Virus record (IMG/VR): IMGVR_UViG_3300032285_000445
Coordinates: 1 to 35,828 of that record
Length of the DNA stretch: 35,828 nucleotides
Reading direction: 5' to 3' (one strand)
Source of the DNA: a virus
Shown here: positions 1 through 29,027 of the stretch, piece by piece
How the letters are laid out: each line of letters starts with the position of its first letter
How positions within the stretch are numbered: the stretch's first letter is position 1
The notes under the pieces: generated by a model
What the model saw: the letters and a program-made list of their open reading frames with translations, nothing else
The model's database searches: none
What the model was told of the DNA's origin: nothing
Made by a program: the position numbers and the translations under genes

Positions 1-61
1 ATCCAATTTCTGCATAGGCAGGTGAGCATAGTATTATAAGGCAAACTGCTAGACTTCTCAT
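1..61 (-). CDS. Secreted protein, N-terminus only (runs off the window)
   Basis: Only the first 20 codons are present. The ATG overlaps the stop codon of the upstream curlin-like gene (TAATG), so the two are probably translationally coupled. The visible residues form a classic signal peptide: MRS, a hydrophobic core (LAVCLIILC) and an AYA/E cleavage site. Its place at the end of the csgF-csgG-curlin series suggests another exported curli-type component such as a subunit, a CsgE/CsgC-like factor or a surface protein, but the mature part lies outside the window and the family cannot be named. Confidence 0.6.
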   Translation of the reverse strand, partial: MRSLAVCLIILCSPAYAEIG

Positions 62-849
62 TATTTGCCTCCGTTGGCTACAACTATGACGTTGTTACTG
101 CCCTTCATAACTATGTTCAAAGGCGTAACATCTCCGATACCTAGCTGTGAAGTCTTTACTGTATTAGAATTTCCTATAATATCAAATGTAGCAGTATGTC
201 CAAAACCGTCTTGAGACATGTTTACATTGTTTCCAGAACCTACTGCTGTTCCTATTACTGAGTTATTGTTTCCTGTTTGGGATATGTTAACTGTATTATT
301 ACTACCGCTAGATACTGTGATTTGCTGTAAATTTCTATCTCCTGCGGTTAACGAAATAACTCCGTTAGAGTTACCGCCGCTGGTAGTAGCTGTTAGATTA
401 TTAGCAGTACCCGTCATCTTAACTTCAGCGTTGTTGCCATTACCGGTCTGTGTTAGTATGATGCTGTTGCCTTTGCTGATATCTTTGCCATTGCCATTGC
501 TATCTATGACGGCATTATTACTATTACCTTTTACGTTGTAGTAAAAGATATTACCACTGTATCCAGCAATGTCTAATTCCGATGGCAATTTTGTCTGAGC
601 ACCAAATTTCATCGTGTTGCCTGAACCCACTTGGCTGATAGTTATCTGGTTACTATCTCCATACATTATAGCCGGGGTTTCATCACTAGTTCCACTGCCT
701 GGTAATCCCCGAACTCGATTACCGGCACCATCCTGTACGATTAACACTGTTGCGTTATCGCCCGATTGGTCTATGTAGGTGCTGTTATCTGCCGCATAAG
801 CTTCAACAGCACCAATACATAGTAGTGATGCTATGATGCGTTTTAACAT
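61..849 (-). CDS. Curlin-repeat (CsgA/CsgB-like) secreted amyloid subunit
   Basis: 262 aa. An N-terminal signal peptide (residues about 1-20, ending AYA/ADN) is followed by a Gly/Asn/Ser/Thr-rich mature protein. It has repeats of the curlin type, with Gln and Asn spaced as in x6-Q-x-G-x2-N: 'YIDQSGDN', 'ITISQVGSGN', 'IILTQTGNGN', 'VNISQTGNNN', 'VNMSQDGFGH'. In curli such strand-turn repeats stack into an extracellular amyloid fibre, exported unfolded through CsgG. The ATG lies 2 nt after the preceding curlin gene with no clear Shine-Dalgarno, so translation is probably coupled. The repeats are more irregular and widely spaced than in E. coli CsgA, so a divergent fibre or adhesin is possible. 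Whether it is major subunit or nucleator cannot be told. Confidence 0.8.
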   Translation of the reverse strand: MLKRIIASLLCIGAVEAYAADNSTYIDQSGDNATVLIVQDGAGNRVRGLPGSGTSDETPAIMYGDSNQITISQVGSGNTMKFGAQTKLPSELDIAGYSGNIFYYNVKGNSNNAVIDSNGNGKDISKGNSIILTQTGNGNNAEVKMTGTANNLTATTSGGNSNGVISLTAGDRNLQQITVSSGSNNTVNISQTGNNNSVIGTAVGSGNNVNMSQDGFGHTATFDIIGNSNTVKTSQLGIGDVTPLNIVMKGSNNVIVVANGGK

Positions 850-850
850 A

Positions 851-1753
851 TTAAGGCTTATTACTGTTTAATCTTAATGTGTTGTTGCTACCTGCAACAT
901 TCACGTTAATAGTGCTATTTGCTATTCCTGCCTGTACAACACCAATATCATTGCCAGACCCAGTTACGTTAGCCGCGAATGTATGTCCAGTTACAGCAGT
1001 GCTGTCCTGTGCTACATTGAACGTATTACTAACTCCTGATGCGGCAATACTAATACTGTTATAATCGCCTGTTTGCTGTGTACTTACTGTGTTAGAATTT
1101 GCTGTTAGATTGATACCGGTAGTGTTGCCAGTACCATTAACTACTGAAGTGATATTACTGTTGTCTACAGCGCCACTAGTACCAGATCCAAACCCACTGC
1201 CTAGTGTAGCAATCACAGTATTATCGTTACCAGTTTGTACATTGATACCGATAGCGTTGTTGCTACCATTGCCATTAACTTGCACTTGTGTATTAGTTAA
1301 TTTTGAATTAGGATTTCCTACGTTAATCGTGCCTGCGTTGTTAGAACCTTCTATCTGATACAAGAAACTTAATGGTGCCGAAGTGCTACCTACAACACCA
1401 GTATAAGGATTAGCTGGAAATGTCATAGTCCTTCCTGAGCTAGGGCCACCGTCATCGTTATTAAAACTGAGTGCCAGCTTGTTGCTTGTACCCACTTGAT
1501 CGATCACTACACCGTTGCTAGTACCATTAATTCCTGCTCTGTTGCTAGCACTAGGTATCCCGTTAGTGCCGCCAATAGCGTTGCCGCTACCTTTCTGATT
1601 TACTACTATTTGGTTATTATCACCTGCTTGATCGATGAATATGCTATTGTCCGCGGCCATAGCAAAGCCTCCCGATGTCAACATTGCAGTTGAAATCAGT
1701 ATTGTAAGTAATTTTCTCGACAACTTACCATCGCCTTTGATGCTCTGTTCCAT
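851..1753 (-). CDS. Curlin-repeat (CsgB/CsgA-like) secreted subunit, larger paralogue
   Basis: 300 aa. A 12-residue polar lead is followed by a signal peptide (KLLTILISTAMLTSGGFAMA/ADN) and a long Asn/Gly/Ser-rich region with curlin-type repeats, for example 'IFIDQAGDNNQIVVNQKGSGN', 'VVIDQVGTSN', 'STQQTGDYN'. The start of the mature region (DNS-I/Y-ID-Q-A/S-GDN) matches the neighbouring curlin gene, so the two are paralogues. The ATG has only a weak GGAA upstream. A strong AAGGAG lies about 30 nt further up, and the frame stays open there with no ATG, so a non-AUG start (such as ATT) cannot be excluded. About 70 nt separate it from csgG and include a GC-rich hairpin (GGGGC/GCCCC) at 1793-1805. 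Function is inferred from repeats and from linkage to csgG and csgF. Confidence 0.8.
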   Translation of the reverse strand: MEQSIKGDGKLSRKLLTILISTAMLTSGGFAMAADNSIFIDQAGDNNQIVVNQKGSGNAIGGTNGIPSASNRAGINGTSNGVVIDQVGTSNKLALSFNNDDGGPSSGRTMTFPANPYTGVVGSTSAPLSFLYQIEGSNNAGTINVGNPNSKLTNTQVQVNGNGSNNAIGINVQTGNDNTVIATLGSGFGSGTSGAVDNSNITSVVNGTGNTTGINLTANSNTVSTQQTGDYNSISIAASGVSNTFNVAQDSTAVTGHTFAANVTGSGNDIGVVQAGIANSTINVNVAGSNNTLRLNSNKP

Positions 1754-1792
1754 ATGATTCCAATATTGCTTTCTTAAGGCAATACGCTCCTT

Positions 1793-1805
1793 GGGGCTGG
1801 GCCCC
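1793..1805 (-). other. GC-rich hairpin between csgG and curlin gene
   Basis: GGGGC, a 3-nt loop and GCCCC, directly upstream of an AAGGAG sequence and not followed by a T run. It is more likely a processing or translation-tuning hairpin between csgG and the subunit genes than a terminator. Confidence 0.4.
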
Positions 1806-1826
1806 GTTAATTGTTATTGTACTACT

Positions 1827-3104
1827 TTATTTTAACTGCTCTAATACCTCTGTGCGAATCCATCCGCCTTTGTTTTCGCCGTCTACGACTCTCAGCCAAC
1901 CTTCACTCCCTGGCTGTACAACTTTAACTTCTGTGCCTTTCTTGAAGAGCCATTTCTTAGTACTTGCCGTGTCAGCTTCTGTAAACAAGTATGCATCTTC
2001 TTTTAATTTACGTTGTCCAAACAGCGGCCTTGGTGCTATTGGTTTTACTTCTGCTTTTGCCGCTGGTTTTACTATTTTTTCTTCTGCCTTGCTGGCCTCA
2101 CCCTTTCCTTCGTCTCTTTTAGTATCTTCACTGTCGCTGGACTGTTGTGGTGCGGTGTCAGGTGCGGGGGTTGGGGCGGGTGTTTCGGGGGTTTGTGATT
2201 GAACCACGACATCTTTCTTCTCCTCTTGTTTAACTTCTACAGGAGCTTCTACTTTCTTAGGCTCGGGTTCAAAACCTCCGCCGCCCAACAAGTATCTCTT
2301 AGCTTCAACCATAGGGTACTTAAAATCCCATATGCCTTTCTTTGCGCCTTCTTTGATTAATTCTACCACTGCCATTTCTACTGCTGATTTAACAGCATAA
2401 GTACCTGGCTCATTGATAGTTAAGCCTGCTTCTGCTTCAAAACTCTTCGTACCAGCATCAAAGAATTTCAATGCTGTGGCACTGTCTGCTGTACTCATTA
2501 TAGTTTTCTGTACAGTAACACTTGCCAAGACTTTACCTGTGTTTACACTGACTGCACGTAGACTCACCGTAACTGTATCAGTGCTCCATTGTGTCTGTGA
2601 TCCTATTCCAAATATTCTTGCGCCAGCGCCGCCGCTAGTCGTGCTAGTATCGTAGCCTACTATTCCACCTTCCATAATCAATCCAGCAAACTGCATAGGC
2701 ATCAAAGGTTTTGCATTAGCACCTTCATATGCTTCGCGCATCTGACGTATGATTGTACGCTCCTTGGTTAGGTTGTCGATGCCAACACGCTCGACAACAT
2801 CGAACCATGTACCTTTACCTACATCCTGCAATGCTTTGATAAGGAATGCTTCTGCACCTTGAGTAACCGCAGTACTTAAACTTGCCACATTAGCTTGCGG
2901 CCTGCGCTGTCCTGTCTTGTCCATAAAACTGTATACTGCTACACTAACTGGCTTGTTACTGGATGGAGGAGGTATAGTATCAAACTCCTTCTGCATCATA
3001 ACTTTAGTTACTTCTGGTTTAGTCTCAGTCAATCCGGTACTCTGGATTGACGCACACCCAGCAAGGCTTAAAGCAATTAATGTCGGTAGTAATACATTCT
3101 TCAT
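1827..3104 (-). CDS. csgG: CsgG-like outer-membrane curli export lipoprotein with C-terminal SH3-like domain
   Basis: 425 aa from the ATG at 3104, chosen over a TTG at 3116 because GGAAAC lies just upstream and it follows the csgF stop by 1 nt. A lipoprotein signal ends in LAGC (lipidated Cys at residue 17). Residues of about 50-260 match CsgG closely: 'VSVAVYSFMDKTGQ', 'STAVTQGAEAFLIKAL', 'GGIVGYDTSTTSGGAGAR', 'FGIGSQTQ', 'VNTGKVLASV', 'GLTINEPGT' and 'KKGIWDFK'. CsgG forms the nonameric outer-membrane pore that exports curli subunits. Unusually it continues about 140 residues beyond the normal CsgG end: a Pro/Glu/Lys-rich linker and then a bacterial SH3-like module ('EGWLRVVDGENKGGWIRTE'), which could bind peptidoglycan from the periplasmic side. 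The residues corresponding to the E. coli constriction (Tyr51, Asn55, Phe56) are not conserved; Leu occupies the Phe56 position. Confidence 0.93.
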   Translation of the reverse strand: MKNVLLPTLIALSLAGCASIQSTGLTETKPEVTKVMMQKEFDTIPPPSSNKPVSVAVYSFMDKTGQRRPQANVASLSTAVTQGAEAFLIKALQDVGKGTWFDVVERVGIDNLTKERTIIRQMREAYEGANAKPLMPMQFAGLIMEGGIVGYDTSTTSGGAGARIFGIGSQTQWSTDTVTVSLRAVSVNTGKVLASVTVQKTIMSTADSATALKFFDAGTKSFEAEAGLTINEPGTYAVKSAVEMAVVELIKEGAKKGIWDFKYPMVEAKRYLLGGGGFEPEPKKVEAPVEVKQEEKKDVVVQSQTPETPAPTPAPDTAPQQSSDSEDTKRDEGKGEASKAEEKIVKPAAKAEVKPIAPRPLFGQRKLKEDAYLFTEADTASTKKWLFKKGTEVKVVQPGSEGWLRVVDGENKGGWIRTEVLEQLK

Positions 3105-3105
3105 A

Positions 3106-3555
3106 TTAGTTTCCAAACTGGAATTGTCCTAATGGGACAACTACAGTAGTCTGATTGCCGACACTGTCTGTAACTTGTAAGGTAACGCTAGAACTATCCT
3201 TAGTCCAGAATATAGTATTACCTTCAAAATTTAGTGTGCCTGAATTTGTGCCACCATTAGCAAACATAGCAGTAGCTAAATTTTGGCTAATCTGTGCGTA
3301 TATACGTGACTCTAAGTTGTTCATGAACTTGGCTATGTTGGTATTAGATGCATCTGCTTTTGCTTTGTCTAATGCCGCTTGAATATCTTTTTGTAACTGC
3401 GCCCTACGTGTAAATTCTTGATTTTCTATAGTAAGCACATGACTGCTATATCCACTGCCATTGAAGCTTGGGCTCTTAAATTGATAGTCTTGGAGAGGTG
3501 CTGCCATTGCTATTGCCGGGCAGATTAACAAGCAGAATATTAACTTTTTCACCAT
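3106..3555 (-). CDS. csgF: CsgF-like curli assembly factor
   Basis: 149 aa. A signal peptide (KKLIFCLLICPAIAMA/APLQ) precedes the diagnostic CsgF start 'YQFKSPSFNGSG' (compare E. coli 'FQFRNPNFGG'). The C-terminal part, 'VTLQVTDSVGNQTTVVVPLG', matches the strand region ending E. coli CsgF. CsgF binds the CsgG channel, with its N-terminus inside the pore, and couples export to fibre nucleation. GGGAG lies 6 nt before the ATG. A late-type box (3585-3592) gives a leader of about 25 nt, so csgF is the first gene of the curli unit csgF-csgG-curlin-curlin-secreted protein. Its tight junction with csgG supports a working export apparatus. Confidence 0.9.
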   Translation of the reverse strand: MVKKLIFCLLICPAIAMAAPLQDYQFKSPSFNGSGYSSHVLTIENQEFTRRAQLQKDIQAALDKAKADASNTNIAKFMNNLESRIYAQISQNLATAMFANGGTNSGTLNFEGNTIFWTKDSSSVTLQVTDSVGNQTTVVVPLGQFQFGN

Positions 3556-5886: not shown

Positions 5887-6517
5887 TATCTATCCTACTA
5901 ATCTTAAAACTATAAACACCGTTATGTAATCTTTTAGGTAAAAAATTCATCGAGATGCTGATTCGGTTATCACCTAAGTTAGGTTCGTGACCATGAACTA
6001 GGTTCGATGGCCATATTAGCAATGTTCCTTCTGTAATGTCATGTACCCTGAATGTAGAAGCATTCAGATAGTTGTAATCCCTAGGGTATATACTCATATA
6101 AGGACTGAGTGAATTCAACTCAAGTTCTTTTGAGAAATACAATGGTTGATGTATTTCGTTATCGTAATTTAGATAGTATGTTCCACTAAAATAAGAATTA
6201 CCATGATTGTGTTTACCCATCACACAGTTTCTGTGAGTCTGGTTTATCCAACTCAAACTCACAAACATATCTGTGTCTAGGTTTAATAAATTGTTTGCAT
6301 AATCATTGACGGATTCTTCGAGGAAGTTTTTAAAATCTGACATGTCATCCTGATTTAAGAAACTTCCTGTATACTCGAAGTAATGATTAGCATCTTGAAT
6401 CCTGCGTACTTCGTTTGTTGTATCCATCATACGCTGTACTATATTTTTTAAATTATCGTTATTAGAATATGCATACCTTCCTATAACTGTTGGAAAGATT
6501 TCAAAATGATTACTCAT
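5879..6517 (-). CDS. 2OG-Fe(II) oxygenase family protein
   Basis: 212 aa. The double-stranded beta-helix core of phage 2-oxoglutarate/Fe(II) dioxygenases is visible. His103 and His105 lie in 'GKHNHGNSYFSGTYYL', the distal His175 in 'IWPSNLVHGHEPN', and Arg185, the likely 2-oxoglutarate anchor, in 'NRISISMNF'. Such genes are frequent in T4-like aquatic phages; substrates are mostly unknown. It sits between heme oxygenase and bilin reductase with overlapping start and stop codons on both sides, so it is expressed with them. It may act on a tetrapyrrole or a protein in the same pathway, or merely share the operon and the iron requirement. Confidence 0.82.
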   Translation of the reverse strand: MSNHFEIFPTVIGRYAYSNNDNLKNIVQRMMDTTNEVRRIQDANHYFEYTGSFLNQDDMSDFKNFLEESVNDYANNLLNLDTDMFVSLSWINQTHRNCVMGKHNHGNSYFSGTYYLNYDNEIHQPLYFSKELELNSLSPYMSIYPRDYNYLNASTFRVHDITEGTLLIWPSNLVHGHEPNLGDNRISISMNFLPKRLHNGVYSFKISRIDNE

Positions 6518-7064
6518 CTACATATTCTACTAATTCTAACATGTCTCTAAATAGATCTGTAGCAAACGAAAAACAGATGTTAGCTTCGTCGGCCATGTCA
6601 TCGCTGATACGTTCCCGTATGGCAGCTTTGAGTGCATCAGGTTCTGCAAATTGATACATACGTCCGGATCCTGGAACCTTCTTACTAATCATCTGACCGC
6701 CTGCAAGGTCGCCCATGTGTCGAACATAGATGTGTGCCATTAGTTTCTTAGGATCATCCTTGATGCTCAGTATGTGTTTAATATACTTTTCAGTAGTAGG
6801 CATGATCTTAGGAATGCCGTCTTCTTCATCATTCCATAGTTCTTCAAAATCTGCTAGGATCGAAGGTGCTCGGCGGATATCAGGTAGCCCATGTAAAAGC
6901 TGATGTGGCATAGCACATACTTCTAGAATCTCATAAGTAGGATGTTGGTTTTTTAAAAATGTTGCATATAGCTTTGGATTGATCTTACCCGAAAACAGGA
7001 TCTTCACAAACTCTTGTCTCTCGGCATTTTTATGTGCCTCATGTGTTAACTCGCGTAAGCTCAT
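6510..7064 (-). CDS. Heme oxygenase (HO-1-like)
   Basis: 184 aa. It opens heme to biliverdin IX-alpha, CO and Fe(II). The proximal ligand is His11 in 'THEAHKNAE', and the distal-helix signature 'HMGDLAGGQ' is at residues 116-124. Both are diagnostic of the HO family. The length is slightly short because there is no C-terminal extension. The ATG overlaps the clpS stop (ATGA) and is served by GGAGGAAGA. The bilin reductase two genes downstream would take the product, so the pair forms a heme-to-bilin pathway. The released iron could also feed the phage iron enzymes (NrdB, 2OG oxygenase, IscU/IscA); that link is an inference. Confidence 0.93.
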   Translation of the reverse strand: MSLRELTHEAHKNAERQEFVKILFSGKINPKLYATFLKNQHPTYEILEVCAMPHQLLHGLPDIRRAPSILADFEELWNDEEDGIPKIMPTTEKYIKHILSIKDDPKKLMAHIYVRHMGDLAGGQMISKKVPGSGRMYQFAEPDALKAAIRERISDDMADEANICFSFATDLFRDMLELVEYVDE

Positions 7065-7363
7065 TCTTCCTCCAATTTGATCTGCAATGGAAATCCATTT
7101 GCTCGAGCTACTGTGGTTGCTTCGACTGCCTTAGCTTCAGCGATTTCAAAACTGTAAACGCCAGCTATTGCACTACCACTTTCGTGTACTGTGACCATGA
7201 TGTCACGAGCAGTTGTGTCTGAGTGATGGAATATTTCGATTAATATACCAACAACAAAGTCCATAGGAGTAGCGTCATCGTTTAGGAAGATAACCTTCCA
7301 ACGTTTTGGCTCTGATACGGTTACTTTGATCTTTTCGTCTAGTTGAATATCGGTTCCTGGCAT
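7061..7363 (-). CDS. clpS: ClpS-like N-recognin adaptor of Clp protease
   Basis: 100 aa. ClpS delivers proteins with destabilising N-terminal residues to ClpAP. The core is clear: 'WKVIFLNDDATPMDFVV' with Asn28-Asp29-Asp30 of the N-degron pocket, then 'IMVTVHESGSAIAGVYSFEIAEAKA' and a final beta strand. No ClpA or ClpP gene is in the window, so the protein would redirect or compete for host ClpAP. It is the first gene of the unit clpS-heme oxygenase-2OG oxygenase-bilin reductase, which starts from the late box at 7415-7422 with a stem-loop at the predicted +1. ClpS may protect or steer turnover of new phage proteins while chaperones from the neighbouring units assist folding. Confidence 0.93.
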   Translation of the reverse strand: MPGTDIQLDEKIKVTVSEPKRWKVIFLNDDATPMDFVVGILIEIFHHSDTTARDIMVTVHESGSAIAGVYSFEIAEAKAVEATTVARANGFPLQIKLEEE

Positions 7364-7383
7364 CTTCTTACTCTCTTAGGGTT

Positions 7384-7413
7384 TAGTGTAGGGAAGGTAA
7401 CTTCCCTACACTA
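7384..7413 (-). other. 5' stem-loop in the clpS leader
   Basis: A perfect 13-bp stem with a 4-nt loop (TAGTGTAGGGAAG and its complement). With +1 at about 7409 the RNA would begin GTAGGGAAG, so a 9-bp hairpin forms its 5' end. No T run follows, so it is not a terminator of hsp20. Compare 7876-7901 and 9852-9874. Confidence 0.65.
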
Positions 7414-7414
7414 T

Positions 7415-7422
7415 TATTTACT
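7415..7422 (-). promoter_or_regulatory. T4-type late promoter box (AGTAAATA) for clpS
   Basis: Directly upstream of the leader hairpin and next to the hsp20 stop codon; predicted +1 at about 7409. Confidence 0.55.
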
Positions 7423-7845
7423 TCATTTAATAGTGATCGAACGTGGTTTTAATGCTTCTGGAACGATACGCTCAATTTCAATCTTAAGCATACCATCCTT
7501 AACTTCAGCACCCTTGACTTCCATATATTCAGCTAGGGTAAATGTCTGCTCAAAATCACGAGCGGCTAATCCACGATGCAAATATTCCACACCTTCTGCG
7601 GCATTAGCTCGTTTACCTGTAATCATTAGCTGATCTTGATCAACTTCTACAGTGATTTCATCTTTGGTAAAACCTGCTACTGCTACTTCGATTCCATACT
7701 TGTTGTCAGCGTATTTGACAATGTTGTGTGGAGGATAGTTGCCGTTTACATTAGCGAATTGATTGTTAAAGTAACGATCAAATCCTACAAGTGCTCTGTT
7801 GATTTGTGCTAGAGCATTAGCATCAATAGTTCTTAGTTGGTTCAT
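7423..7845 (-). CDS. Small heat-shock protein (Hsp20/IbpA-like)
   Basis: 140 aa. It has an alpha-crystallin domain (residues about 40-125): 'YGIEVAVAGFTKDEITVEVD', 'LMITGKR', 'HRGLAARDFEQTFTL', then 'GMLKIEIERIVPEA' and a C-terminal 'PRSITIK' containing the I-x-I tail motif used for oligomerisation. It is an ATP-independent holdase that hands unfolded clients to the DnaK system. It sits directly downstream of phage dnaK but has its own perfect sigma-70 promoter (7908-7936) and a 5' stem-loop leader nearly the same as that of dnaK. Small heat-shock proteins are known in T4-like cyanophages; here the gene is part of a larger folding cluster. Confidence 0.95.
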   Translation of the reverse strand: MNQLRTIDANALAQINRALVGFDRYFNNQFANVNGNYPPHNIVKYADNKYGIEVAVAGFTKDEITVEVDQDQLMITGKRANAAEGVEYLHRGLAARDFEQTFTLAEYMEVKGAEVKDGMLKIEIERIVPEALKPRSITIK

Positions 7846-7875
7846 TTTGTTTCTCCTTTATTAAGCAAGAACTTT

Positions 7876-7901
7876 GTAGGGCCCGACCATCGGCGCCCTA
7901 C
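7876..7901 (-). other. 5'-terminal stem-loop in the hsp20 leader
   Basis: GTAGGGC/GCCCTAC plus an inner CCGA/TCGG stem. It begins at the predicted +1 (7901) of the sigma-70 promoter. It is followed by TTCTTGCTTAAT and AAAGGAGAAA, almost the same as in the dnaK leader. Likely an mRNA-stabilising or regulatory element. Confidence 0.7.
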
Positions 7902-7907
7902 GATTTT

Positions 7908-7936
7908 ATTATATTACTTCTTATCCTTAGTGTCAA
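7908..7936 (-). promoter_or_regulatory. Consensus sigma-70 promoter for hsp20
   Basis: TTGACA, 17 nt, TATAAT: no mismatch. The -35 lies inside the end of dnaK and the -10 abuts its stop codon. Confidence 0.85.
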
Positions 7937-9821
7937 CCTCTGTGAACTCTGCATCTACTACAGCAGGCTCTGGTTCAGCCGCAGGAGCTTCTGGAGGAGC
8001 TTGTTCTGCTGTCTGTTTAGCAGTAAAGATTGGTTGTGCTTTTTCAAACAACGTTTGGACAGACTTTTGGATAGCTTCTGGATCGTCGCCAAGTACTGAT
8101 TTGTCAACGTCGGCCAGGGCGGTTTCAAATGCTGTCTTGTCGTCTTCTGTTAGCTTATCTTTGTACTGTTCAAAATCTTTCTTCACAGTATGTGTTGCAC
8201 CTTCCGCATTGTTACGAGCTTCGATCAATTCCTTCAGCTTCTTATCAGCTTCGGCATTTTCCTCTGCTTCCTTAACCATGCGTTGTATTTCTGCTTCAGA
8301 TAGACCTGAATCAGATTTAATAGTAATCTTGTTTTCTTTGCCAGTATTCTTATCCTTGGCACTTACATTCAAGATACCATTAGCATCAAGATCTAGTGTG
8401 ACCTCGATCTGGGGAACACCACGCATTGCTGGAGCAATACCTTCTAGGTTAAATTCGCCCAACAACTTGTTGTGTTGCATTAGTTCACGCTCGCCCTGTC
8501 CTACCTTAATAGTGACAGCAGGCTGATTGTCTTCAGCTGTGCTGAATGTCTGAGTGTGTTTAGTTGGAATAGTTGTGTTCTTCTGGATCAGCTTGGTAAA
8601 GATACCGCCCATTGTTTCGATACCTAATGACAATGGAGTAACGTCTAGCAACAGAACGTCTGTCTTATCGCCTGCTAGAACAGCACCTTGGATTGCGGCG
8701 CCTGCGGCAACTGCTTCGTCTGGGTTGACGTCCTTACGTGGAGCCTTGCCAAACAGTTTCTCAACTGCTTCTTGTACCTTAGGCATGCGTGTCTGTCCAC
8801 CAACAAGGATAACTTCGTCGATGTCAGCGGCAGTAACACCTGCATCTTTCATAGCAACCTTACATGGTTCAATTGAACGCTGGATCAATACATCTACCAT
8901 CTGTTCAAACTTGCTACGTGTAATCTTGACGATCAAATGCTTAGGACCGCTTGCGTCTGCTGTGATGTATGGCAAGTTGACTTCAGTCTGTGCGGCGCTA
9001 GACAATTCAATCTTGGCCTTTTCAGCTGAATCCTTTAGACGTTGTAGTGCCAACTGATCCTTCTTAAGGTCGATGCCAGACTCTTTCTTGAACTCATCTA
9101 CTAGATAGTCCATGATAACTTGGTCAAAGTCTTCACCGCCTAGGAATGTATCACCATTAGTTGACAACACTTCAATCTGCTTGTCGCCATCGATATTGGC
9201 AATCTCGATAATGGACACGTCGAATGTACCACCACCTAGATCGTATACAGCTACCTTACGATCCTTCTTATCTTCTTTATCTACGCCATAGGCTAGAGCA
9301 GCCGCAGTTGGTTCGTTGATAATGCGAAGTACTTCGAGTCCAGCAATACGTCCTGCATCCTTAGTTGCTTGACGTTGACTGTCGTTAAAGTAAGCAGGCA
9401 CGGTGATAACTGCTTGAGTAACTGTTGTACCCAAATAGTCCTCTGCTGTCTTTTTCATCTTACGAAGTACTTCGGCTGAAACTTGCGGCGGAGCCAATTT
9501 CTCGCCATTTGCTTCGATCCAAGCGTCACCGTTTTCTGCCTTGATGATACTGTAAGGCATCAAGTCAATATCTTTCTGTACAGCCTGCTCTTCGAACTTA
9601 CGTCCGATTAAACGCTTTGCCGCATAAATTGTATTCTTTGGGTTTGTGACTGCTTGTCGCTTTGCTGTTGCACCTACTAGGATCTCGTCTGTAGTGTATG
9701 CAATGATTGACGGTGTTGTTCTAGCACCTTCGCTGTTTTCGATTACCTTAGCTTTTCCGTTTTCTAGGATAGCTACACAGCTATTTGTTGTACCTAAGTC
9801 GATACCGATGATTTTGCTCAT
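7914..9821 (-). CDS. dnaK: Hsp70 chaperone DnaK, full length
   Basis: 635 aa, the normal bacterial length. The ATPase domain (1-385) shows '[14 protein letters not shown]', '[10 protein letters not shown]' with the catalytic Lys, '[20 protein letters not shown]', '[12 protein letters not shown]' and '[13 protein letters not shown]'. The linker is '[16 protein letters not shown]'. The substrate-binding domain and helical lid follow, and the protein ends '[11 protein letters not shown]' like cellular DnaK. No part is missing, so it should work as an ATP-driven foldase with host DnaJ and GrpE, which are absent from the window. The sequence resembles betaproteobacterial DnaK ('[13 protein letters not shown]', '[12 protein letters not shown]'), suggesting capture from such a host. 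A full-length DnaK is rare in phages. Its leader (late box, 5' stem-loop, AAAGGAG) is a near copy of the hsp20 leader. Confidence 0.98.
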
Positions 9822-13576: not shown

Positions 13577-13651
13577 TGGTGCGCTTAGTGGGAGTCGAAC
13601 CCACCAAACAGAGATTTAGAGTCTCCTTACCTTCCGCAGGTTCTTAAGCGC
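13577..13651 (-). tRNA. Amber-suppressor tRNA, anticodon CUA
   Basis: 75 nt with CCA encoded. Acceptor stem GCGCTTA/TAAGCGC is perfect. The T arm is GTGGG-TTCGACT-CCCAC. The anticodon stem is GGAGA/TCTCT with loop CTCTAAA: U33 and A37 are in place and positions 34-36 are CTA, which reads UAG codons. Alternative framings (such as UCU for Arg) break the anticodon stem and lose U33. The short variable arm (5 nt) excludes Leu, Ser and bacterial Tyr types; discriminator is A. The D arm is weak (3 pairs) and positions 8 and 14 are A and T, the reverse of normal. The amino acid cannot be read from sequence. It is transcribed from a consensus promoter 10 nt upstream. Confidence 0.85.
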
Positions 13652-13925: not shown

Positions 13926-14325
13926 TTTCGTCTTCTTCTCCATCATCGTCCGTGACCTGCGCCACGATCCAGTCTAAGTTATAAATTCTGTTCTTACTAA
14001 TCAATCCATAAGGAGTGATTTCATCATTAGTTATATAGTGTGTATTAGGTTGAGCAAGAAGATAAGTTACAAATAATTTAGTAGTAGGATCGCAGTTGTC
14101 AATATCGATAATGGTAATATCGCATTGGTTAGCTACACTAAGTAGCCAATCTACATCGTGCTCATTGTCATCGTAGATGAACACATTAATTTCTTCTATA
14201 TTGTGGCTCAAAATAGTTTGAAACTGTTGCTTCACATATAGCGAAGGCTTTATTAACAGATATCCCATATTCAAATTGAATAGTTTATCCGGCGGTGTTA
14301 TTAAGTTGATTTTTCCTAAGCTCAT
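13909..14325 (-). CDS. Phage protein of unknown function
   Basis: About 138 aa from the ATG at 14325 ('[13 protein letters not shown]'). A longer frame from 14385 would overlap the upstream gene by 100 nt and seems less likely. It is a soluble alpha/beta protein with alternating beta strands and acidic loops ('[17 protein letters not shown]', '[12 protein letters not shown]') resembling a Rossmann-like or nucleotide-binding fold, and an Asp/Glu-rich tail. It overlaps bS21 at its end. No family recognised. Confidence 0.7.
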
Positions 14326-14476
14326 GGATTCGTTCTTCGTATTGTGCAAGTTTCTCTTCTGGGTAATCAGTGAATCTGGGCCCATTTAATTTAACGTTCT
14401 CAACGAATTGATAAAGGTCCGGTTCTGTTGTTGGATCGACGATAACATCGCTAAACTGATGAGCGTTGTACTCCAC
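14285..14476 (-). CDS. Protein of unknown function; may be the -1 frameshift extension of the 409-aa gene
   Basis: 63 codons from a GTG at 14476 with no good ribosome site. The same frame is open for another 49 codons upstream, back to the A9 run at 14624-14632 inside the preceding gene, with protein-like residues ('EYVQNAEQGNGTLWSRIVA'). No ATG occurs in that stretch. Three readings are possible: expression by a -1 shift on A AAA AAG to give a product of about 504 aa; loss of a start codon (four more bases near 14564 would give ATG AAT GAA TAT); or a short GTG-started protein. The C-terminal part ('LYQFVENVKLNGPRF', '[16 protein letters not shown]') is helical. Function unknown. Confidence 0.55.
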   Translation of the reverse strand: MEYNAHQFSDVIVDPTTEPDLYQFVENVKLNGPRFTDYPEEKLAQYEERIHELRKNQLNNTAG

Positions 14477-14568
14477 ATATAATTGATCGATTGGTGAATG
14501 GCCTGGCCTTGCAACAATCCTAGACCAAAGTGTTCCGTTGCCTTGTTCTGCATTCTGTACATATTCAT

Positions 14569-15798
14569 TTACTCCCGGTTCTGTATTACTGTCCTGCCCA
14601 GGCTGTCCTTGATCATGTAAGTCTTTTTTTTTGATTCTTCGTCAAGGGTTACTTCTTTGCCCTCAGTATCGATATAACTATCACCTCGGGCTACTCGTTC
14701 TTCTACTGTGTCTAAGTGTTCTTGTAATTCTGGAAGTATCTGGAACTTCTTCTCTTTCTCAGCTTCAGCAACTTTCTCAGCTTCAGCAATCATTTGGTTC
14801 CATTGCTCTATCGGCATTGGCGGATCTGTTTCTTCGTGTTCGACTAGCTCATTAATCTTTTCAGCTAGTTTAGGTTTTACTTGTCGAACTGCTTCAGCAA
14901 TACGTTTAATATCTTCTTGGCTAAGTTCGTCATCGGGTTCAGGTACAACTACAGCTGGAATTGGTTTAGTTACGGGTTCAACTGGAGTTTCAACCACTGG
15001 AACAGTCTTGTGTACTAAAGGCTCTTCTTCGACTATAGGCTTTCTGTGCCAACCAATCGTCATCTGTGCGGCCAGTAACATGATAACTGCCAATGGATCA
15101 AATACTACTACAATTAGTATAATAATCCAAGTGACTGATTTTTCGAGCATGTTTTCATCAGCGCCGTGATCACCGTAGATAAATTTAGCGATATATTTGA
15201 TTGGTCCGACTTCTGCTTCGACTTTTCTGTTTTCTGCGGCAATAGGAGCACGTTGCTCGTTTAATACAGATATAGCTTTATTAGACTTGTCGATCTCTGC
15301 TAGTAGTCTTGTGCGTTCTTTGGCTTGGCTCTGTCTCAATGCCGATGCCTTACTAGCACCTTTCTCGTCATTACTACGAGACATGATCTGATCAACAGCC
15401 TCATCCATCTGCTTGAGTGCTTTGCGATCAGTTGCGATAGTGTCTTTCTCTACTCGTATCTTTTCATCAAATACAGCAATCTTAGCCTGAACATCTCCTG
15501 TAACTAGGCTTTGATCATTGTGTGCTTTAGAAAGGAAACCAAATATGCCCATACTAGTTATAAGCATCAACACAACCACTGCGGTAGTCATGTATAGTTT
15601 CATGAAACGTGGAGCACGTTCCCAATTAGCTTTTAACCAACTAGCACATACTAGTTTGGCTATTTCTAATGCCGAACCCATAACTATAATAGGAACTGCG
15701 GCCGCTGAAAAAATAGCGGTCAAACCAACTACAGAGTAGTAAATTGCGACCGCTGAAATTGTTAAACCAGTTAGTAGTAACAGGTAAGCCAGTATCAT
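14569..15798 (-). CDS. Membrane protein with coiled coil, function unknown
   Basis: 409 aa. Two transmembrane helices near the N-terminus (about residues 1-48) and a third at about 68-92 are followed by a long charged coiled coil (about 100-195), a fourth membrane segment ('ESVTWIIILIVVVFDPLAVIM', about 222-246, of which I quote the core), and a Pro/Glu/Val-rich tail. It ends S-K-K-K on an A9 run and then 17 more residues. AAGGAAACA precedes the ATG. The topology resembles membrane proteins found in many T4-like aquatic phages; a role in adsorption, superinfection control or lysis is possible but unsupported. The A9 run may direct a share of ribosomes into the downstream frame. Confidence 0.75.
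   Translation of the reverse strand: MILAYLLLLTGLTISAVAIYYSVVGLTAIFSAAAVPIIVMGSALEIAKLVCASWLKANWERAPRFMKLYMTTAVVVLMLITSMGIFGFLSKAHNDQSLVTGDVQAKIAVFDEKIRVEKDTIATDRKALKQMDEAVDQIMSRSNDEKGASKASALRQSQAKERTRLLAEIDKSNKAISVLNEQRAPIAAENRKVEAEVGPIKYIAKFIYGDHGADENMLEKSVTWIIILIVVVFDPLAVIMLLAAQMTIGWHRKPIVEEEPLVHKTVPVVETPVEPVTKPIPAVVVPEPDDELSQEDIKRIAEAVRQVKPKLAEKINELVEHEETDPPMPIEQWNQMIAEAEKVAEAEKEKKFQILPELQEHLDTVEERVARGDSYIDTEGKEVTLDEESKKKTYMIKDSLGRTVIQNRE
14624..14632 (-). promoter_or_regulatory. Candidate -1 ribosomal frameshift site (A9 run)
   Basis: ATC-A9-G; in the zero frame it reads TCA AAA AAA AAG, so the heptamer A AAA AAG (the dnaX-type slip sequence) is in phase. The -1 frame is open for 112 codons after it. 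The same 13 nt occur at 27961-27969. Confidence 0.5.
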
Positions 15799-18028: not shown

Positions 18029-18355
18029 TTATACTTTGAAGCTTTCGCCACAGCCGCAACGTGCTGTTTCGTTTGGATTCTTAAAATCAAATCCTTCATT
18101 GAGTCCGTTTTTAACCCAATCGATCTCCATGCCAAACATGTATACTTCGTGCTTTTGATCAACTAACACTACAAACTCGGGTTGTGCATAATTGATTACA
18201 TTGGGTTCTGCTGTGTACTCATCTACATACTCTAGTGTATACTTGAGTCCACTGCAACCGCTAGTCTTGACACCAAGTCGGATGCCAACACCTTTGCCTC
18301 TCTTTTCTAAAAACTCTTTTACTTTTTTACGAGCTTTGTCGGTTACGGTAATCAT
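18029..18355 (-). CDS. iscA: A-type iron-sulfur carrier (IscA-like)
   Basis: 108 aa. It matches IscA along its whole length: 'GIRLGVKTSGCSGLKYTLEYVDE' with Cys34, 'GLNEGFDFKNPNE', and 'CGCGESFKV' with Cys100 and Cys102. The three Cys bind iron or a [2Fe-2S]/[4Fe-4S] cluster and pass it to target proteins. The start overlaps the end of iscU by 29 nt, so the two are translated together. It is unlikely to supply clusters to the phage class Ia RNR, which uses a di-iron site. Ferredoxin, the electron donor for the bilin reductase, is a possible beneficiary (inference). Confidence 0.95.
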   Translation of the reverse strand: MITVTDKARKKVKEFLEKRGKGVGIRLGVKTSGCSGLKYTLEYVDEYTAEPNVINYAQPEFVVLVDQKHEVYMFGMEIDWVKNGLNEGFDFKNPNETARCGCGESFKV

Positions 18356-18710
18356 TTACTGCCGCCTTAATCGCATCTTCTGCCAGTATGCTACAATGTA
18401 TTTTGACCGGAGGCAGGGCGAGTTCTTCTGCAATCGCAGAATTCTTGATGCTTCCTGCTTCGTCAAGAGTCTTACCTTTAAGCCATTCTGTAACAAGAGA
18501 GCTAGACGCAATTGCCGACCCGCACCCGTAAGTTTTGAATTTAGCATCTTCAATAATACCTTGTTCATTGACTTTGATTTGTAATTTCATTACATCGCCA
18601 CAAGCTGGTGCGCCCACCATACCAGTACCAATACTAGGGTCAGACTTGTCAAAGCTGCCAACGTTTCTAGGGTTTTCGTAGTGATCGATAACTTTGTCAC
18701 TATAAGCCAT
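18327..18710 (-). CDS. iscU: Iron-sulfur cluster scaffold IscU
   Basis: 127 aa from the ATG at 18710, which overlaps the stop of the preceding small gene (TAATG); a start at 18740 would lie within that gene. All functional residues fall at the same numbers as in E. coli: Cys37 and Asp39 in 'GAPACGDVMKL', Cys63 in 'YGCGSAIASS', the HscA recognition motif 'LPPVK' at 99-103, and His105-Cys106. It should receive sulfur from host IscS and build [2Fe-2S] clusters. No iscS, hscA, hscB or fdx is visible, so it must plug into the host pathway. The operon iscU-iscA is preceded by two small membrane or secreted genes. Confidence 0.96.
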   Translation of the reverse strand: MAYSDKVIDHYENPRNVGSFDKSDPSIGTGMVGAPACGDVMKLQIKVNEQGIIEDAKFKTYGCGSAIASSSLVTEWLKGKTLDEAGSIKNSAIAEELALPPVKIHCSILAEDAIKAAVNDYRNRQSS

Positions 18711-18901
18711 TACTGTATTGTAACATGTCCGGTAGCCCAAAGTACTGCGAGTATAGGCCCGGCAATGTGTTCTCCGATTTCATATAATGCCCATGCAGTT
18801 AAGGCAACTGCCCACCATGGGTTAGTTTCTGCTTTTTGTCCTAGCCACGTAAAAAATTTACCATGAGCTCGGCCGATTGAATTTGCTACTTTTACTATCA
18901 T
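18710..18901 (-). CDS. Small membrane protein
   Basis: 63 aa with a basic amphipathic start ('VANSIGRAHGKFFTWLGQK') and one or two hydrophobic helices ('WWAVALTAWALYEIGEHIAG', 'ILAVLWATG'). Its ATG overlaps the stop of the secreted-protein gene and its stop overlaps the iscU start, so the four genes from 19236 to 18029 form one translationally coupled unit. Function unknown. Confidence 0.75.
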   Translation of the reverse strand: MIVKVANSIGRAHGKFFTWLGQKAETNPWWAVALTAWALYEIGEHIAGPILAVLWATGHVTIQ

Positions 18902-26847: not shown

Positions 26848-26855
26848 TATTTATC
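26848..26855 (-). promoter_or_regulatory. T4-type late promoter box (GATAAATA) for the tailspike
   Basis: About 21 nt before the ATG; overlaps the stop of the nuclease gene. AGAGGATA is the ribosome site. Confidence 0.65.
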
Positions 26856-27573
26856 AGTTCTCCCGGTAGTACTGTTCTACCCTGTCCCACCAGCGTTTTT
26901 CCCAATAGTCGAAATCGCTGGGTTTTAGTATAAATTCCTGATATTGAGGGTTTTCTACTATAACTAGCTGTTCGTTTAGTTTAGGACTTACACACATAAG
27001 AACGACACCTTTGCGTATGTTAGTCTTGTATACTTCATTATGGGCGAGTGCATAGGCCGTCAGCTGTAGATAGTAATCTTCGATCCAGTCTTCGCGTTTA
27101 GGTTTGTTAGTTTGTTTATAGTCTAATATGCTTTCTTCATTTAGATGTAGCCCGCATCCGTCAGTAGTTCCAGCATATAGCCCTGGATAGTAAAGCGGAA
27201 CTTCGACACCCCATACTTCGTTAACATTCTTCAGGCCATGTTCGATAACGTGTTTGGCCATAACATGGCTTTGTTTGCTGTAGGGATTAGAGCCAGGTTC
27301 GTTGATAATGCCCGTCTTGACATAGTCCTCTAAGAACTTGTGCATACGTGTACCACGCCCTGCGGCTTCGGTTACTATCTCTTGTGCTTTGGCTTCTCCT
27401 ACTCGCTTCTTCCAATTGGCTAATGCCAGTTTCTTTTCGAGTGGTTTAGTCTTGTCTAATATAGTAGTTACACTAGGAACTTTGGAGCCATCTGGTGTTG
27501 CGTACAAACGCTTGCCTTCTACACTTTCTCTGCTGATAGGAGTGTAGTTATATTTTTCAGTTAAAAGAGTCAT
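26854..27573 (-). CDS. PD-(D/E)XK exonuclease, Cas4/RecB-like
   Basis: 239 aa. N-terminal 'LYATPDGSKVPSVTTIL' and 'GRGTRMHKFLEDY' (motif with the conserved His) are followed by 'GLYAGTTDGCGL' (catalytic Asp), 'SILDYKQTNK' (D-x-K core) and 'YYLQLTAYALA' (the QxxxY motif of RecB-type nucleases). This set identifies a RecB/Cas4-like exonuclease used in recombination or DNA processing. No 4Fe-4S Cys cluster is visible. The sigma-70 promoter sits so close that +1 falls on the ATG; no Shine-Dalgarno is present, so the early mRNA may be leaderless. Confidence 0.83.
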   Translation of the reverse strand: MTLLTEKYNYTPISRESVEGKRLYATPDGSKVPSVTTILDKTKPLEKKLALANWKKRVGEAKAQEIVTEAAGRGTRMHKFLEDYVKTGIINEPGSNPYSKQSHVMAKHVIEHGLKNVNEVWGVEVPLYYPGLYAGTTDGCGLHLNEESILDYKQTNKPKREDWIEDYYLQLTAYALAHNEVYKTNIRKGVVLMCVSPKLNEQLVIVENPQYQEFILKPSDFDYWEKRWWDRVEQYYREN

Positions 27574-27612: not shown

Positions 27613-27906
27613 TTAGGCAGTCATATTATCTGCGGCTCGTTGGGCAGTAGTATCCAACATGCTCGGCCCGGCGCTGGCATTCTTGACAGGGGGTTGTTCT
27701 TGTCCTATTTTGACTATGACACCATTCTTGTCAAAGTTTTTAACCAAGTTGTGTAGGACTTTTTGTTTTGGATCTGGTAACTGATCTTCTGCTTCCCAAC
27801 GTGCGGCAAACATGTCGTAGCTCATAACACCACTATCGCCCATTTCGGCGCTTAGTGTATCCCATGATGCAGGAGCATCTGATTTGTTGTTGGATTTAAT
27901 GGCCAT
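27613..27906 (-). CDS. Small phage protein; may be the -1 frameshift extension of the 356-aa gene
   Basis: About 97 aa from the ATG at 27906 with a weak CAGG upstream. The frame is open 17 codons further, back to the A9 run at 27961-27969 at the end of the preceding gene, with protein-like residues ('VILEAEAENVSDPLIQAL'). A -1 shift on A AAA AAG there would fuse it to the 356-aa protein (about 471 aa). It is acidic and helical with 'SWDTLSAEMGDSGVMSYDMF'. No family recognised; neighbours are virion-type genes. Confidence 0.6.
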   Translation of the reverse strand: MAIKSNNKSDAPASWDTLSAEMGDSGVMSYDMFAARWEAEDQLPDPKQKVLHNLVKNFDKNGVIVKIGQEQPPVKNASAGPSMLDTTAQRAADNMTA

Positions 27907-27956
27907 CAAGGCCTGGATAAGAGGGTCGGAGACATTTTCTGCCTCCGCCTCAAGTA

Positions 27957-29027
27957 TTACTTTTTTTTTGATGCAAGGAGTTGTGCTAGCTTGCGACTGT
28001 AGTCAGCAGTTTCGCGAACTTCGCGACCCATTGGGGGAGCTGTTTCTTCTGGAGCTTCTTCGCCTGGCATTCCGCCTTCTTCACCACCGGGTGCACCTGG
28101 CATTGGATTGCCTGCACCGATGTCAGCGCCTGGTTGTTCTGCGCCCATCATCTCTGCGCCTTGGCCGCCTGATACAACTGCTAGTGCAGATTGTAAACTA
28201 CCACGTGTCTTTTCTAGGCCTGAATAAATTTCTTCTAGAGCTGGACGTACTGCCTGCATATATTGTTCGGCTGTCTGTGCACCTAATTCTGCTCTTATAG
28301 AGTCACCTAACTGTAATAGTTGTTCGGCACGCATTTCAGACACATCGTCTAACCATCCAGTGACGCGATCAACCATGTCTTTTGTTGACATAATGATTTT
28401 AGCTTTTTCTTCTTCGCCTTCTTGTAGGTATACAATGTGATTAGCTACGCTTTCTCTTAGATCGTAACGTGTTACTAATTCTGCTGCCAATTCGCCTTGG
28501 TCGCTTTCACCTAGTTCAATACGCTTGATTGCATCTGCGATCCAGCTTGTTGGTACTGAGTGTTCTTTAGCTTTTACAGCCATCTTAGCAATGGCAATAT
28601 TTTTACCGTGATCCATACTTTCTTCCGCCTTTTTATTCTTATTGTTCAACATGCCACGCTTATTGGCTGTCGCCCATGCAATGTTTTCTGCTTCCTTGTC
28701 GCCGTGTCCTAATTTCTTCTCACTGGACTTGACGTGCTTGACCATGCGATCAACCTTAGCACCTTCGTCTACTGTTTCTCTTTCTAGGATCTCAGCTGTG
28801 ACAACATCATGCAACATACGAATCTTTTGATACTTTGGACTTACGTTAACGCTGTCAAAACTTTCACTGACTTCAAACTGGCTCATTTCTGTGCGTAGCT
28901 TGTTCTGTGCATCGTGTAGTTGTTGATCAGTAAACTGTTCAAGATTCAATTTATAGCCAATAGTCTTGGCCATGTTTTCATTTAGCTGTTTGCTAGTAAC
29001 TCGTTGAGAAAGGTCTCTTAATTGCAT
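27957..29027 (-). CDS. Acidic phage protein, probably virion or assembly component
   Basis: 356 aa. Helical throughout: 'MQLRDLSQRVTSKQLNENM' at the start, charged helices ('KHVKSSEKKLGHGDKEAEN'), then a Gly/Pro/Glu-rich segment (about 290-335) and a short basic end in K-K-K. The N-terminus resembles the short head-targeting leaders discussed for other genes here, but without a clear protease site. Late box CATAAATA (29054-29061) with AGGA before the ATG. The gene ends on the same A9 run found at 14624-14632. Not recognised as a known scaffold or portal. Confidence 0.7.
   Translation of the reverse strand: MQLRDLSQRVTSKQLNENMAKTIGYKLNLEQFTDQQLHDAQNKLRTEMSQFEVSESFDSVNVSPKYQKIRMLHDVVTAEILERETVDEGAKVDRMVKHVKSSEKKLGHGDKEAENIAWATANKRGMLNNKNKKAEESMDHGKNIAIAKMAVKAKEHSVPTSWIADAIKRIELGESDQGELAAELVTRYDLRESVANHIVYLQEGEEEKAKIIMSTKDMVDRVTGWLDDVSEMRAEQLLQLGDSIRAELGAQTAEQYMQAVRPALEEIYSGLEKTRGSLQSALAVVSGGQGAEMMGAEQPGADIGAGNPMPGAPGGEEGGMPGEEAPEETAPPMGREVRETADYSRKLAQLLASKKK
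27961..27969 (-). promoter_or_regulatory. Candidate -1 ribosomal frameshift site (A9 run)
   Basis: TCA AAA AAA AAG TAA: A AAA AAG in phase and directly before the stop codon. A weak CGGAG/CTCCG stem (27926-27946 area) follows, which might stimulate slipping. Confidence 0.5.

Follow-up and report, generated by a model that had tools for sequence, protein, structure and literature searches.

A candidate programmed -1 ribosomal frameshift site at the end of a gene in large aquatic phages

We analyzed a 35.8-kilobase (kb) virus record, IMGVR_UViG_3300032285_000445. This whole stretch of 35,828 nucleotides (nt) is our window, and coordinates refer to it unless another record is named. A gene for a protein of 356 amino acids (aa) on its minus strand ends in a run of nine A's (A9) that is followed directly by a stop codon, while the -1 frame remains open for another 115 codons. 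Sequence comparisons suggest that this gene end is probably a programmed -1 ribosomal frameshift site, stimulated by a hairpin.

Slip site at the end of the 356-aa gene

The features of this locus, which we call site 2, are as follows.

27957 to 29027, minus strand: zero-frame gene, an open reading frame for 356 aa that ends in SKKK
27961 to 27969, minus strand: A9 run, with the slip heptamer A_AAA_AAG at 27960-27966 and the TAA stop at 27957-27959
27613 to 27960, minus strand: -1 frame extension of 115 codons, which includes a 98-aa frame; the predicted fusion has 471 aa
27921 to 27951, minus strand: hairpin predicted by RNA folding, with a stem of 12 base pairs and a 5-nt loop, 8 nt past the AAG

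The 3' end of the gene reads GCA TCA AAA AAA AAG TAA. The first-pass annotation of these letters had noticed that the gene ends in a 13-mer (ATC-A9-G) with the heptamer directly before the stop, and that the -1 frame runs into the 98-aa frame with no ATG for 17 codons. Both observations hold: the stop is where it was placed, past the slip the -1 frame stays open as far as 27613, and its first in-frame start codons are a TTG at codon 18 (27909) and an ATG at codon 19 (27906). Exactly two copies of the 13-mer are present in the window (14623-14635 and 27960-27972, each on the minus strand), where dinucleotide shuffles would lead one to expect 0.01. A9 runs by themselves are not rare under shuffling (1.5 are expected in the window). 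The two slip sites are the only runs of at least 8 A's or T's in the window, and the same two sites are the only such runs across 60 kb of one 265-kb relative as well. Long A-runs look to be rare outside the two sites in these phage genomes.

Conservation of the run and of the extension

Wider searches gave 43 distinct homologous sequences for site 2, from many metagenomes, the most distant of which have 32-36% protein identity. In each of the 43, the run has nine or more A's and the same phase, and a homologous -1 extension follows. The pattern that we used for collection demanded at least 8 A's after TC, but the site-2 genes that were followed independently of this pattern all have the run. 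For example, twelve close relatives (L001-L012; best-segment identity of 63-83%) all terminate in TCAAAAAAAAAGTAA and all have the homologous extension.

The consensus over the 43 sequences is TCA-AAA-AAA-AA followed by G (33), A (8), or C (2). More specifically, 32 sequences have A9-AAG-TAA, 8 have A10 (AAA-TAA), 2 have A9-AAC-TAA, and 1 has A9-AAG-TCC-TAG. The last of these, L271, is the only sequence of the 43 in which the codon after the run is not TAA. (L271 is on contig PALK01000009.1, which was binned as a Rickettsiales bacterium, and is probably a misbinned phage contig.) The slip heptamers are A_AAA_AAG (33), A_AAA_AAA (8), and A_AAA_AAC (2), so they have the form X_XXY_YYZ in the right phase throughout. 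Outside of the site, this family encodes 32% of its lysines with AAG and 30% of its serines with TCA, yet the run is never shorter than nine A's. The first-pass annotation had named variable run lengths among relatives as a sign against frameshifting; the only variation that we found above nine is the eight A10 sequences, which stay in frame because they arise by substitution of AAG to AAA.

It had also suggested a search for the element in relatives. The 12-mer TCAAAAAAAAAG has 65 hits across the related phage records and is present in all 45 of them; the reversed pattern, as a control, has none. The hits that we checked all fall in two gene families, although not each of the 65 was translated individually. 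Most of the records have one or two hits, and where there are two, they are about 12-15 kb apart. The one outlier, at 54497 of record G044, turned out to be a further homologue of the 356-aa family with the same element. This 85.9-kb record has copies of the family at 6992 and 54497, on opposite strands; perhaps it is a chimeric contig, or else the second copy is a paralogue. A single tblastn scan for each family confirmed 76 relatives of the 356-aa protein (many of them short partial matches) and 594 of the membrane protein that is described below. As for cultured phages, the relative of the 356-aa protein in Atu_ph07 does not have the element at its gene end, and SCTP-2 holds a relative (L266) whose reading frame we did not recover.

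The extensions range from 102 to 133 codons across the 43 sequences, and the 28 that we aligned match from end to end. In this alignment, Glu is invariant at codon 4-5, and a Trp, a Tyr, and a Phe are nearly so. Pairwise ratios of nonsynonymous to synonymous substitution rates (dN/dS) are 0.04-0.38 for pairs with measurable (unsaturated) dS, and by this measure the extension is under purifying selection.

A selected hairpin after the run

We compared the folding stability of the 60 nt after the slip to dinucleotide shuffles and to shuffles that preserve the protein in the -1 frame. The mean z was -3.3 against the former (29 sequences) and -3.0 against the latter, synonymous-codon shuffles, with 36 of 43 sequences below -1.65. 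The window's hairpin is the most extreme: its z is -6.4 against synonymous-codon shuffles, and 0 of 200 shuffles were as stable. In most sequences, a spacer of 4-15 nt separates the AAG from the stem. Within a clade of nine, both sides changed in 4 of the 15 stem pairs (compensatory changes), and the covariation score is 0.256 as compared to 0.174 after shuffling (0 of 500 were as high); slid controls also scored lower. By these tests, 36 of the 43 sequences have a hairpin under selection of its own, over and above that on the coding sequence. A search of the site-2 region against Rfam gave no match.

The first-pass annotation had argued for programmed frameshifting rather than chance. That claim is now strongly supported by the A-run, its phase, the neighboring stop, and the -1 extension (all in 43 of 43), by the evolution of the extension as a protein, and by the hairpin.

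A sister site in a membrane-protein gene

The other copy of the 13-mer, which we call site 1, lies in a second recoded gene.

14569 to 15798, minus strand: gene for a 409-aa membrane protein
14623 to 14635, minus strand: the first slip site, an ATC-A9-G whose zero-frame stop lies 55 nt further on
14285 to 14623, minus strand: -1 frame extension of 112 codons

The two sites had been described as identical, in the same phase, and at gene ends. The phase is indeed the same, but given those 55 nt, site 1 is not at its stop codon. It is as well conserved as site 2. Among 58 distinct relatives with the run, 56 have A9-G in the same phase and 2 have A8-G, and the -1 extension is about 110 codons in most relatives. 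In two relatives, the fusion is encoded in a single frame, by TCT-A9-GAT (L129/L272) or by A10 (L273). In L129 (3001-4500), the -1 frame meets a stop one codon past the run, so in this one sequence the roles may be swapped, with slippage giving the short form. Relatives of the membrane protein also occur in cultured phages (Mosig, XacN1, RAS14, SCTP-2, immuto, and Mel-JY01), none of which has the element at the gene end.

Ribosome or RNA polymerase?

Under a programmed -1 ribosomal frameshift, most ribosomes would read TCA AAA AAA AAG and stop at TAA, which would give the 356-residue form. A minority would pause at the slip site, aided by the mRNA hairpin; the lysine tRNAs would slip back by one base and pair with the A-run again, and decoding would resume with GTA ATA CTT. 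The product would be a 471-residue form with a C-terminal domain of 115 aa, in which SKKK is followed by V (predicted junction peptide LLASKKKVILEAEAENVSDPLIQ). In E. coli, A_AAA_AAG is the most slip-prone heptamer of this kind, is used by dnaX, and is far more shift-prone than the all-A or AAC variants (PMC5009743). That the ribosome slips rather than the RNA polymerase is our inference, as are the proportion of short to long form and their role.

Several observations weigh against this reading. Ten of the 43 sites have AAA or AAC in place of AAG, and in E. coli the resulting heptamers are less prone to slip. The A9 run exceeds what a ribosomal site needs, and nine is also a length at which bacterial RNA polymerase slips (PMC5009743). 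Seven of the site-2 sequences, mostly from one clade, do not have such a hairpin, and one hairpin-less phage with AAG has its own tRNA-Lys(CUU), which is expected to hold AAG. An upstream Shine-Dalgarno-like stimulator, an optional element of bacterial frameshift sites, is absent at both sites (the upstream duplex at site 2 scores -0.88, versus -2.22 for the control). Finally, the RNA downstream of site 1 is unstructured (mean z of +0.57), with no hairpin.

We considered whether a phage tRNA-Lys(CUU) goes along with a change of AAG to AAA. This fitted two related phages, but two observations contradict it: G043 has genes for both tRNA-Lys and yet keeps AAG, and site 1 of G028 is still AAG. The related large phage records G013, G028, and G046 (L362-L364) have about 27-31 tRNA genes each, as found by ARAGORN, and some have both Lys anticodons.

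The strongest alternative, which we consider possible but rather unlikely, is transcriptional slippage: RNA polymerase would add one A (or lose two) on the A9 run, ordinary translation would give the long form, and the hairpin would have another job. RNA polymerase slips efficiently on 9 A's or T's (PMC5009743), and in a relative the sister fusion is encoded by A10. The length of the run (the heptamer needs only 6-7 A's), the variable base after it (G, A, or C), and a sister site that retains A9-G without a hairpin keep polymerase slippage alive. On the other hand, a 3' hairpin cannot act on a polymerase that is passing the run, yet the hairpin is strongly selected at site 2, and it lies where ribosomal stimulators sit. 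Two distinct sister sites, moreover, have just eight A's. The junction SKKKV would result from either mechanism, whereas SKKV would come only from a polymerase that deletes two A's.

It is possible, though less likely than not, that two unlinked genes run from one identical 12-nt element, TC-A9-G, with the help of a hairpin in one and without it in the other. If so, their long forms could be co-set by a shared level of slippage, perhaps with ribosomal and polymerase slippage mixed.

Alternatively, the extension might be a separate downstream gene that is translated without slippage, either by reinitiation or from a start codon inside the frame (for instance, the ATG at 27906). Phages often use termination-reinitiation, and the window does have the TTG and ATG at codons 18-19. 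But conserved coding begins at codon 4-5, ahead of any start codon, and no start is common to the extensions: just 8 of 31 have ATG, GTG, or TTG within the first 12 codons, their positions follow no pattern, and in several relatives the first 30-100 codons contain none. Use of the 27906 ATG, which the first-pass annotation had listed as a sign against frameshifting, is thus not favored, as the relatives do not share a start codon close to the junction. Furthermore, nothing in a start-based model would call for the nine or more A's that all 43 sequences have. We reject this explanation as very improbable. That the frame was split by sequencing or assembly errors in the homopolymer or by gene decay has a negligible chance of being correct: homopolymers of nine are error-prone and the window and its relatives are metagenome assemblies, but the same frame relation recurs in 43 distinct sequences from many metagenomes, the A10 variants are frame-neutral, and the hairpin and the stop are conserved as well. 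For this explanation to hold, one and the same error would have to run through all the data sets.

Comparison to known systems

Gene 10 of phages T3 and T7 and coat or tail genes of Lactobacillus phage A2 and of Listeria phages likewise give a short form plus a less abundant one that gains a C-terminal extension through slippage close to the stop (PMC5009743), and here too the protein is probably structural. However, our proteins are different, there is no sign of an immunoglobulin-like extension, the A9 slip is followed directly by TAA, and the same genomes have an identical second site. E. coli dnaX has the same heptamer and a 3' hairpin at a similar distance, but it also has a 5' Shine-Dalgarno element, which is absent here, and here the slip yields the long form. 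RNA polymerase slippage in Thermus dnaX involves the same run length of 9, and in Shigella spa13 it also adds a C-terminal extension, of 112 residues (PMC5009743); in contrast to both, the selected 3' hairpin at site 2 points to ribosomes. The carboxysome gene csoS2 has a -1 frameshift with a 3' stem-loop (PMC5009743) and also yields two forms of a structural protein that differ in the C-terminal part, but the protein and the site are unrelated. In the open-access literature, we found no report of this element or of its use in either gene.

Each of the two recoded families is frequent among large uncultured phages of aquatic habitats. Because gene callers would split or truncate both genes, the long forms would be missed in annotation. 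The natural variation (A9 or A10; AAG, AAA, or AAC; with or without the hairpin; with or without a phage tRNA-Lys) offers a ready-made set for telling ribosomal from polymerase slippage.

What the proteins might do

An AlphaFold model of the 356-aa protein (mean predicted local distance difference test, or pLDDT, of 67) is all helices plus a coiled coil, with a disordered linker, rich in Gly, Pro, and Glu, before the short C-terminal helix that ends in SKKK. The PHROG 14154 profile ("virion structural protein") weakly matches 27 of 28 homologues (best 2e-15), and the window's protein aligns to about 90 of its 771 residues. By profile and Foldseek searches, the protein also has weak links to a RaK2 protein as well as to a virion structural protein of Agrobacterium phage Atu_ph07.

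The extension is modeled as a small alpha/beta domain (pLDDT of 70). VIA-align gives Z of 4.5 or less to the winged helices of PhoB/OmpR, which is too weak to claim a fold; a Foldseek search with the extension gave nothing significant, and its profile found nothing credible among PDB sequences. The model suggests, weakly, a winged-helix-like domain. Our guess is that the 356-aa protein is helical and probably virion associated, and that a minority form carries an extra domain that might bind nucleic acid.

We also considered the frameshift of tail assembly chaperones (G/GT) and rejected it, as the site is not directly upstream of a tape measure gene: the next gene downstream encodes a PD-(D/E)XK nuclease (26854-27573), and then comes a pectate-lyase-like tail protein. 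Pfam searches for Gp23 and the T4 prohead protease in six related records gave no match, but the controls were silent too.

Other features of the window

The gene content of the window is typical of large aquatic phages and includes curli genes, DnaK, ClpS, IscU/IscA, and ribonucleotide reductase. The curli cluster (61-3555, minus strand) encodes two curlin-repeat-like proteins, CsgG, and CsgF; such a cluster has been reported in marine pelagimyophages (PMC7029224). Genes for heme oxygenase, ClpS, DnaK, and IscA/IscU-like iron-sulphur proteins lie at 6510-9821 and 18029-18740 (minus strand).

A tRNA with the amber anticodon CUA is present at 13577-13651 (minus strand), as well as in G016 (L369) and G037 (L370). 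None of the 46 main genes that we picked in the window ends in TAG (37 end in TAA and 9 in TGA), which hints at amber suppression. However, when we read TAG as an amino acid, no gene was clearly lengthened, and relatives use some TAG stops.
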